NCBI RefSeq assembly: GCF_011089885.1
Contig: NZ_JAANBD010000028.1
Span: 556,389 to 620,388 of the forward strand
Reading direction: 5' to 3'
Source: Thioalkalivibrio sp. XN279
GTDB lineage: Bacteria; Pseudomonadota; Gammaproteobacteria; Steroidobacterales; XN24
DNA: 64,000 nt
The notes below the pieces were generated by a model. It was not told the origin of the DNA. It ran no database searches and saw nothing but the letters and a program-made list of their open reading frames with translations. Positions 14,361 through 15,909 of this stretch are shown here, piece by piece. Numbering within the stretch: position 1 is the stretch's first letter; every line of letters begins with the position of its first letter. A program made the position numbers and the translations under genes.

Positions 14361-14678
14361 TCACACGCCGTCGGGCTTCTTCTTCGCCTTGTCGCCGCCG
14401 CACTTGCCTTCGCCACACTTGCCCTCGGCGCCCTTCTCTTCCTTGTCGCCGCCGCACTTGCCTTCGCCGCACTTGCCCTCGCCGCACTTGCCCTCGGCTT
14501 CCTTCTTCTCTTCCTTCTTGCCGTGGTCATCGATGGACGCGTGGGTCATGTAGCCGCTGGACAGCGCCGTCATGCCGAAGGGATTGGCGTCGGCGTGGGC
14601 GGACTGGATGCCGGCCAGCGAGCCCGCCAGGGCGATACCGGCAGCCAGCGAAACGGGCTTGATGGTCTTCTTCATCAT
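14361..14678 (-). CDS. HvfA-like EGKCG-repeat secreted peptide precursor
   Basis: A 105-residue protein. A Sec signal peptide (MMKKTIKPVSLAAG..., cleavage after AHA near residue 30) precedes a tail with five EGKCG motifs in groups of three and two, set in Lys/Glu/Asp/Gly-rich sequence. The five motifs hold the only cysteines. This architecture matches HvfA-type precursors, in which a DUF692 (MNIO) iron enzyme with a partner protein modifies EGKCG cysteines into copper-binding groups. No DUF692 or partner gene lies in the operon or elsewhere in the window. The start at 14678 has AGAGGA 8 bases upstream. It is the third gene after an ECF sigma factor and its anti-sigma factor, so stress induction is likely. 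Confidence 0.85.
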   Translation of the reverse strand: MMKKTIKPVSLAAGIALAGSLAGIQSAHADANPFGMTALSSGYMTHASIDDHGKKEEKKEAEGKCGEGKCGEGKCGGDKEEKGAEGKCGEGKCGGDKAKKKPDGV

Positions 14679-14752
14679 TGCTGTGGTCCTCTCTCTCTCG
14701 GTTCTCGGGTTTCCGGCCTTCAGGCCGTTGTTGTAGAGCGGCGCAAGTCCGC

Positions 14753-15394
14753 TCATAGTCTCCAGTGCACCGCCTGTTGCAGGCGGTCCCGGATGATCTC
14801 GATATCCTCGTCGGGTGTGCCGACGATGGCGGCGCTGCCGCCGCCTTCCATGGGCACGATGGTACCCACAAAGCCCTCTTCGTCGATGGGCGTGGGCCCG
14901 ACCACTTCTTCGTCCGGCAGCAGCATCACGGTGACCGGGCCCTTTTCGCCCTGCACCACGAAGTGCGCCACCATCTCGCCGCGGAAGGGACAGAGCTTGG
15001 CGTAGCTGACCGGCCCTACGGGTTGCGCGAGGCCGGCACGCCCGCGACGCAGGACCTCGTCGAACTCCTGCGCCGGCACGGTCCCCGCGGTAACCGCGAG
15101 CGAAGCCGGCTCGTGCAGGATATGCGCGATGATTTCGGCGCCGAGCGGCGACACGTCGGCGGGGGGCCGCGTCTGCAGCCCGAGCCAGAGCGCGGCGGCC
15201 AGCACCATGCTCGCCGCGACTGCGGCGAAGGCGGGCCAGCGCGGACGCGGCCGCGGCGCCCCCTGGGGTTGCCCCCCGGCGTTCGCCGCCACCGGCACTC
15301 GCAGCGCGGCCTCCAGCAAGGCATCGAAACGCCGCTCGTCGGCGAGCAGGGCCTCGCGGCGGCGGCGCTCTTCAGGCGTGATGGTCGTCTTCAT
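14753..15394 (-). CDS. Anti-sigma factor, DUF3379-like
   Basis: A 213-residue protein with one membrane helix (about residues 54-75). The cytoplasmic N-terminal 50 residues (EERRRREALLADERRFDALLEAAL) should hold the sigma factor; the periplasmic part has a CPFRGEMVAHFVV segment and resembles DUF3379 proteins. The ATG overlaps the sigma factor stop as ATGA, the normal pairing for an ECF sigma and its membrane inhibitor. No zinc-binding anti-sigma (ZAS) motif is seen. The EGKCG peptide gene follows after 74 bases. Confidence 0.78.
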   Translation of the reverse strand: MKTTITPEERRRREALLADERRFDALLEAALRVPVAANAGGQPQGAPRPRPRWPAFAAVAASMVLAAALWLGLQTRPPADVSPLGAEIIAHILHEPASLAVTAGTVPAQEFDEVLRRGRAGLAQPVGPVSYAKLCPFRGEMVAHFVVQGEKGPVTVMLLPDEEVVGPTPIDEEGFVGTIVPMEGGGSAAIVGTPDEDIEIIRDRLQQAVHWRL

Positions 15395-15909
15395 TGCCGC
15401 CCCTCCGTCGCTGCCGCGTCGGCGAGCAGGGCTTCCTTCAGCTTCTCCCGCGCCCGGTGCAGCCGGGTCAGGATGGCGCCCTGGGTCACGCCGAGGATGT
15501 CGGCGATCTCGGCGGTGGAGTGCCCCATCAGCACCTGCAGCACCAGCGGCTCGCGATAGTTGTCCTCGAGCGCCATGATCGCCGTGCGCAGCTCACCCAC
15601 CATCGGTTCCTCGACCTCGTCGGCGATGTCGGCGAAAACCGCCGGGTCCATGCTGTCCTCGCGCTGCTTCTCGCGCAGCCGCAGGAATTCGCGCCGCACG
15701 ATGGTCACCAGCCAGGGGCGGGCCTTGGCCTCGTCCTCCAGGCCGTCGAATGACCGCCATGCGCGCAACATCGATTCCTGCACCACGTCCTCCGCGAGTT
15801 GCGGATCCCGGCCGAGCCACAAGGCGTAGCGGTAGAGATCCGTCCGCAAGGCGCCGACCAGGCGCTCGAAGCGCCGGCGGTCGCCCAGGTTGGCAATAGC
15901 TGCCGTCAT
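15391..15909 (-). CDS. ECF-type RNA polymerase sigma factor
   Basis: A 172-residue extracytoplasmic-function sigma factor. Region 2 contains [29 protein letters not shown] (core binding and -10 recognition); region 4 contains [40 protein letters not shown], the helix-turn-helix that reads the -35 box. It heads a three-gene operon with its anti-sigma factor and the EGKCG peptide. Start at the ATG 15909; a GTG 13 codons upstream is an alternative. A GTAATAAA-like box with a GTCTC 15 bases later lies just before the ATG and might be an autoregulated ECF promoter, but I cannot prove it. Confidence 0.9.

Follow-up and report, generated by a model that had tools for sequence, protein, structure and literature searches.

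EGKCG-type peptides modified by MNIO enzymes have been described before, and the accounts given here follow the parts of each paper that were covered. In Haemophilus influenzae, the HvfABC(X) oxazolin system combines an EGKCG precursor that carries a secretion signal with the MNIO HvfB and its partner HvfC (PMC13419390). In the captophorins fontiphorin (FonABC) and gonophorin (NgoABC), EGKCG repeats are converted into 5-thiooxazoles and bind copper (PMC12668002), so that this chemistry of the EGKCG cysteines is on record for the FonA, HvfA, and NgoA systems (PMC12668002; PMC13419390). FonA with two repeats becomes 8 Da lighter, i.e., ~4 Da per Cys (PMC12668002). A further EGKCG cluster occurs in Microbulbifer (PMC12538549). 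Precursors unlinked to MNIO genes have already been reported for Buf1 and Buf2, and the legend of a figure that includes EGKCG mentions stand-alone precursor genes (PMC12452194).

As for regulation, the parts of two further papers that were covered describe ECF sigma factors. Haemophilus RpoE2 controls msrAB, mtsZ, and a DoxX gene cluster in response to HOCl (PMC7907618); we infer that this DoxX cluster is the hvf operon. In Caulobacter, one motif places both the sigF operon and CC3254-CC3257 under SigF (PMC3511200). Here, we analyze an operon in which an EGKCG precursor is encoded behind an ECF sigma factor and a DUF3379 protein, at a distance from any modifying enzyme.

The sigma-factor operon

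The operon lies in a 64-kb stretch of DNA (64,000 nucleotides; hereafter 'the window', meaning the whole stretch analyzed). The original prediction, made from the letters of this stretch, read a sigma factor, a middle gene, a precursor with five EGKCG motifs, a terminator, and a divergent hemB. This order was recovered in place (Table 1), and the precursor indeed has five EGKCG motifs, with five cysteines in all.

Table 1. Features of the sigma-factor operon and its neighbors (positions in the window).
Feature	Position	Strand	Remarks
ECF sigma factor gene	15391-15909	-	Pfam Sigma70_r2 and r4_2 matches; short protein
DUF3379 gene	14753-15394	-	PF11859, 82.8 bits (gathering cut-off 33.2)
EGKCG precursor gene, 105 aa	14361-14678	-	NF050137 match; Sec-type signal read by eye; leader NPFGMTALSSGYM; five EGKCG
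Intrinsic terminator 3' of precursor	14298-14324	-	strong; 11-pair stem and T-rich tail
Predicted autoregulatory ECF promoter, TGTAATAA-N15-GGTC	15917-15943	-	sole exact match in the genome
hemB	16014-17033 (start approximate)	+	Pfam ALAD; conserved divergent neighbor of the sigma operon
tag-type methyladenine glycosylase gene	13656-14285	-	frequent downstream neighbor

The sigma-factor gene overlaps the start of the DUF3379 gene by 4 nt, and the precursor gene, which stops at 14361, starts at either 14675 or 14678 (minus strand). Two terminator-like sites were seen in the stretch scanned, against 0.6 expected. A sigma-70 promoter was considered and rejected (0 found), as was a regulatory hairpin in the gap that separates the precursor from DUF3379, since 45 of 200 shuffles folded as well (z -0.71). 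A chance origin of the EGKCG repeat was likewise rejected, the operon being common to 24 genomes.

The precursor passes the NCBIfam model NF050137 for EGKCG-type MNIO precursors (Buf_EGKCG/oxazolin/captophorin) with 40.2 bits (cut-off 19.5). It fails the HvfA equivalog NF050188 (29.3 bits, cut-off 95) and is not filed as HvfA.

Probable modifying enzymes at a distant locus

According to the original prediction, the precursor lacks its modifying enzymes. This statement is correct for the neighborhood of the operon but not for the genome (G000; 29 contigs, 99.9% complete), since HvfB and HvfC are encoded on contig C27. The single MNIO (DUF692) of this genome (G000:C27:132982-133767; 340 bits) is an HvfB by cut-off (415.8 vs. 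360), and the overlapping gene encodes an HvfC (313.3 vs. 142). hvfB is preceded by Rnf-type genes, an nth-type gene, and DUF1841, whose end is 15 nt from the hvfB start; downstream of hvfBC lie an ion-transport gene, an NrtR-type gene, and nadA. In contrast to a classical hvfABC cluster, no precursor was found beside this pair, and no DoxX gene was noted in the neighborhood.

Across the whole genome, the EGKCG DNA pattern occurs five times, always within the precursor gene of the window (reversed control, 0), and this search revealed no second EGKCG gene. Similarly, the genome contains no DUF2282 bufferin match and no second complete hvfABC operon, which the original prediction had named as a refuting result. 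The genome-wide search for a DUF692 gene, its partner, and a second EGKCG peptide, suggested along with the original prediction, returned one HvfB, one HvfC, and no second EGKCG peptide. Between the two options then considered, action of the enzymes from another locus is supported by this single precursor-less pair and the lack of a second EGKCG gene. The lack of DUF2282, a conserved leader, co-occurrence, and a shared predicted ECF promoter in relatives (all below) further favor it, and an unmodified peptide is judged less likely here.

Conservation of the split arrangement

We compared 59 genomes of the order, among which 28 have an EGKCG match, 26 a DUF3379 match, and 37 an HvfB over the cut-off. 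An MNIO is present in all 28 EGKCG genomes, compared with 18 of the 31 without an EGKCG match; for HvfB over the cut-off, the corresponding figures are 27 of 28 and 10 of 31 (Fisher 1.4e-7, uncorrected for kinship). The DUF3379 gene is followed by an EGKCG-type gene in 24 of the 26 DUF3379 genomes, that of the window included, from eight families (23 by model, G015 by eye). In these 24 split genomes, the MNIO lies on another contig (23 genomes) or ~726 kb away (the single-contig G006). hemB adjoins the sigma gene in all split loci except that of G008 (23/24), and rnf, nth, or DUF1841 matches precede hvfB in 22, the exceptions being G034 and G046. An EGKCG gene adjoins hvfB in only two of the 28 EGKCG genomes of the order, G020 and G047.

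The picture differs in a class-wide sample of 274 genomes, where 49 of 64 EGKCG genomes among the matches listed have an MNIO at most 5 kb from the EGKCG gene. Eleven of 37 genomes fetched outside the order show the gene order nth-DUF1841-precursor (7/20 DUF3379-negative, 4/17 DUF3379). In the window's order, the precursor is missing from exactly the slot between DUF1841 and hvfB, whereas elsewhere in the class it is often found there. G194 has one EGKCG gene in the nth-DUF1841 slot and another near a hemB-like gene (neighbors read by eye), making two copies followed by differential loss just as probable as relocation. In summary, the split arrangement is real and deeply conserved, and the peptide system itself is of a known kind.

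Some further loci deserve mention. Outside the window's order, an EGKCG gene adjoins hemB, with the MNIO on another contig, in G183 (L222) and G237 (L227). G001, of the same genus (L088, L089), keeps the precursor, with no ECF or DUF3379 match between it and hemB; elsewhere in G001, a second EGKCG gene and a DoxX gene are divergent to a different ECF gene, which is followed by a protein without a Pfam match. G029 (L113) has an ECF-DUF3379 pair with a weak promoter in a genome without an EGKCG match or MNIO. HvfB of G039 (L140) occupies two overlapping frames, probably because of a frameshift or an assembly error.

The leader of the precursor

The leader of the window precursor, FGMTALSSGY, resembles that of enzyme-linked precursors. 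A pattern describing it, F-x(4-6)-[LMF]-x(1-2)-GY, is found in the window precursor and all 23 other split precursors, in eight of the ten remaining frames of relatives (the exceptions are both truncated), in 16 of 19 frames of class-wide DUF3379 genomes, and in 19 of 21 control frames, where both exceptions come from G153. GY is absent from both leaders in G194, a 99% complete genome with two EGKCG peptides (L277, L278) and no MNIO found, and from the EGKCG peptide of G196, for which the matches listed include no HvfB above the cut-off. G153 is a counter-example: its precursors lack the GY leader, and an HvfB that passes the cut-off lies next to them. Retention of GY in split precursors and its loss where MNIO or HvfB is missing suggest that split precursors are still read, G153 notwithstanding; on balance, the data fit a leader that HvfC would recognize.

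Precursors of other shapes occur among the relatives. Second EGKCG precursors in G010 (L120), G024 (L118), G034 (L121), and G037 (L122) end in a Gly-rich, hydrophobic, and Arg-rich tail that resembles a GlyGly-CTERM membrane anchor, and that of G010 has an ECF motif (11/12) upstream. In two families (L098, L101, L106, L110 and L102, L107, L111, L112), many EGSCG or related repeats replace EGKCG.

A predicted ECF promoter at both loci

The predicted ECF promoter, TGTAATAA-N15-GGTC, is found upstream of the sigma genes and of the unlinked hvfB. In 18 of 26 DUF3379 genomes, as in the window, GGTC starts 11 nt upstream of the sigma start codon, so the sigma mRNA would be nearly leaderless. The motif was scored in two scans, one of fixed 160-nt upstream stretches (spacers 14-16) and one of the fetched loci (spacer 15 only). 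Upstream of the sigma gene, it reaches at least 11/12 in all DUF3379 genomes except G029 (25/26; G029, 9/12, no MNIO). Before the hvfB operon, it reaches at least 11/12 in 18 and at least 10 in 22 of the 23 scorable DUF3379 genomes, and 9/12 in G002. hvfB of G034 was left out (no start found; frame given as 24288 aa), and G039, with its two HvfB frames, entered the second scan only. In this second scan, of 560,344 bases, all 47 sites of at least 11/12 precede sigma genes (27, in 25 genomes), hvfB or DUF1841-hvfB (19, one in G024), or, once, a second EGKCG gene, compared with 1.2 sites per shuffled set (five shuffles, 6 in all). In G010 and G037, the site is either farther upstream or extends over the start, and the fixed 160-nt scan gave these two genomes 7 and 8. 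Because the motif was originally noticed at these loci, the counts there are partly descriptive. A separate search gave 14 related loci, several being genomes already in the order set and three being short or starting near a contig end, with the motif at 11 or more in 11 and EGK/SCG sites in 10.

Genome-wide, exact GTAATAA-N15-GGTC has 66 matches in 28 of the 59 genomes, versus 41 for the reversed pattern. The excess falls in the 26 DUF3379 genomes (61 vs. 21), the other 33 having 5 vs. 20. Along the same lines, the DUF3379-negative G001, G036, G020, and G047 have no site of at least 11 at these genes; an exception is G024, with a 12/12 hvfB site and no detected DUF3379 (450 contigs), whose sister genomes have DUF3379. 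In the class-wide sample, a site of at least 10 precedes an EGKCG or hvfB gene in 8 of 17 DUF3379 genomes, versus 1 of 20 without (G303; p 0.005). The remaining 9 of the 17 have no site at either gene; adding a divergent MNIO-like gene at the sigma locus (G102, G240, G242) raises the count to 11/17, a figure obtained after seeing the data. This test left out G123 (contig start), and G000 and G012 are also absent from it; its controls were 20 of 56 DUF3379-negative EGKCG genomes, hand-picked among the matches listed and all with an adjacent MNIO, one of which (G153) amounts to only 788 bases.

The hvfB site of the genome that contains the window, CGAAATAA-N15-GGTC, scores 10/12 and lies inside the 3' end of the DUF1841 coding sequence. 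None of 2000 shuffles of its 160-nt stretch reaches 10/12, yet it is one of 18 genomic sites with at most two mismatches, and the reversed control has 28. It is thus plausible that the sigma factor controls hvfBC directly in this genome, where the site weakly supports an hvfB promoter. A one-mismatch motif at C28:81032, before a dapE-like gene and beside a reversed phosphate-binding-protein-like gene (by eye), was read as chance.

By place, the 66 exact matches divide into 23 at sigma genes, 14 at hvfB, and 29 elsewhere. Of the 20 sites fetched from this last group, nine stand ahead of notable genes: those for MsrP in G009 and G006 (458 and 463 bits, cut-off 207), thioredoxin/TlpA-like genes in G028, G012, and G039, AhpC/TSA-like genes in G026 and G050, a DUF1223 gene in G004, and, in G058 (L280, L216), where ECF-DUF3379 occurs in the absence of an EGKCG match, a gene for a DUF2282 bufferin precursor with an MNIO gene behind it. 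One member each of the thioredoxin-like and AhpC-like groups was identified with Pfam, the others being named by similarity. The other 11 sites were set aside, with no clear gene kind behind them or a position inside coding sequence. In DUF3379 genomes, 25 of the 61 exact sites lie elsewhere than at sigma or hvfB, a number close to that of the reversed-control matches (21), so only the recurrence of gene kinds argues for a wider regulon. These kinds point to oxidative damage of periplasmic thiols or methionines as a candidate signal, alternative or additional to copper.

The DUF3379 protein

SigmaE-RseA-RseB and AlgU-MucA-MucB are sigma-factor systems with a membrane anti-sigma factor. The anatomy of DUF3379 would fit an anti-sigma factor, the protein being co-encoded with the ECF gene and built of an N-terminal part, one putative membrane helix seen in the model, and an outer domain. 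The AlphaFold2 model (17 sequences, pLDDT 88.8) has an N-terminal helix (7-31), a second helix (53-75) that would anchor it in the membrane, and a C-terminal domain (83-213); Cys135 is invariant in the 17 sequences, and His144 nearly so. The solved chains closest to the C-terminal domain are those of the MucB and RseB C-terminal domains (VIA Z 8.4 and 7.9), the best match being borderline (Z 8.4 over 105 residues, 3.8 Å). Foldseek is likewise borderline for the RseB/MucB fold (E 0.04), and none of its PDB matches reached E 0.001. No known anti-sigma profile matches the DUF3379 protein of the window, and the ZAS-type N-terminal HxxxCxxC is absent from it and present in several homologues. DUF3379 is a probable anti-sigma factor carrying an RseB/MucB-like domain.

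A bolder reading, which we regard as doubtful, would make DUF3379 a previously undescribed one-piece anti-sigma sensor, reserved for the thiooxazole-peptide (MNIO) systems of many Gammaproteobacteria, in which an RseA-like helix and anchor are fused to the RseB/MucB-like domain and Cys135/His144 sense copper or oxidant directly. The mature peptide would then remove the triggering metal and close a feedback loop, which would explain why the precursor, rather than the enzymes, lies beside the sigma factor.

A proposed mechanism and its alternatives

In our view, the window most likely encodes an EGKCG-type (captophorin/oxazolin-like) precursor that is modified in trans by the HvfB-HvfC pair of C27, under the control of a stress sigma factor held by DUF3379. 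DUF3379 would hold the ECF sigma factor at the membrane until envelope stress (oxidant and/or copper) releases it, and the freed factor would transcribe the operon that encodes it, precursor included, and in relatives would also act on the distant hvfBC operon via the same promoter, the shared motif being the putative promoter of this sigma factor. HvfB-HvfC from G000:C27 would convert the precursor cysteines, presumably into 5-thiooxazoles, before export, and the exported product would bind copper in the periplasm. That HvfBC acts on the window peptide is suggested by co-occurrence, the leader, and the absence of recognized alternatives.

An unmodified peptide could also work as a periplasmic thiol buffer or copper chelator, with HvfBC serving another, unrecognized substrate. 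The separation of precursor and hvfBC genes would agree with this, as would the lack of an NF050137 match in 10 of the 37 relatives whose HvfB passes the cut-off, and the two G194 peptides without any MNIO found suggest that unmodified peptides may exist. Yet it is precisely in G194 that the GY motif has been lost, while every split precursor has kept it; an MNIO accompanies the EGKCG match in all 28 relatives, two of the ten HvfB genomes (G015, G055) have diverged EGSCG-rich precursors by eye, and no other precursor family was found in the window's genome (EGKCG and DUF2282 tested). Peptide function without modification is therefore improbable. If HvfBC does modify the peptide, hvfBC may still be constitutive with nth-DUF1841 in the window's genome, leaving only precursor supply under stress control. 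Such an arrangement would suit the short gap behind DUF1841, the candidate site of just 10/12 within coding sequence, and the 9/12 of G002, but five of the family's six DUF3379 genomes have a site of 10/12 or 11/12 lying 64-103 nt upstream of hvfB, and shuffles of those five stretches reach such values 0 to 2 times in 2000; we give this alternative appreciable weight, somewhat short of even odds.

The sigma operon might instead answer another signal, e.g., haem or redox state through hemB, with the peptide as a passenger. The constancy of hemB at the split loci and the motif sites before MsrP and thioredoxin-like genes could be read in this way. The promoter, however, tracks MNIO operons even with another precursor family, as in the DUF2282-MNIO pair of G058, and sites of 11, 11, and 12 accompany the divergent MNIO-like gene at the ECF-DUF3379 loci of G102, G240, and G242, while hemB has no site of at least 11 on its own strand. 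We consider a passenger role very unlikely, and retain modification in trans under a DUF3379-held sigma factor as the preferred explanation.

Comparison with known systems

In an open-access literature collection, which covers part of what is published, we found no description of an ECF-DUF3379-EGKCG operon or its promoter, and no paper on DUF3379. The DUF3379 regulator and the promoter are thus newly proposed for a known kind of peptide system. The findings suggest that the genes of a peptide/MNIO pathway can lie at separate places in a genome and still be joined by a sigma-factor promoter; searches reading only the genes beside an MNIO or a precursor would then miss such pairs. They also offer a testable regulon and a proposed function for DUF3379.

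Unlike the SigmaE-RseA-RseB and AlgU-MucA-MucB systems, the anti-sigma factor and the RseB/MucB-like part would here be one 213-aa DUF3379 protein, the fold likeness being borderline. In Caulobacter, where CC3254-CC3257 is, we assume, a bufferin operon, the SigF motif is GTAACC-N16-CGAA and the anti-sigma factor is of another family, as far as the parts of the paper covered go, whereas the operon of the window has the TGTAATAA element at N15 from GGTC and DUF3379. For Buf1, sigma/NrsF genes are named (PMC12452194), while the parts of that paper covered contain neither an ECF-DUF3379-EGKCG operon nor a shared promoter. FonABC and NgoABC are described, in the portions covered, as clusters with the precursor beside the enzymes, in contrast to the system analyzed here, which is split. 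The hvf genes of Haemophilus form one operon, whereas here the precursor belongs to the sigma operon and the enzymes lie apart; the Haemophilus sigma factor is partnered, according to the sections covered, by the 67-aa HrsE, related to ECF13/ZAS-type factors, and here the partner is DUF3379. Through this different sigma system, the split arrangement may connect thiooxazole peptides with the repair of methionines and thiols in the periplasm, a link also made by Haemophilus RpoE2.
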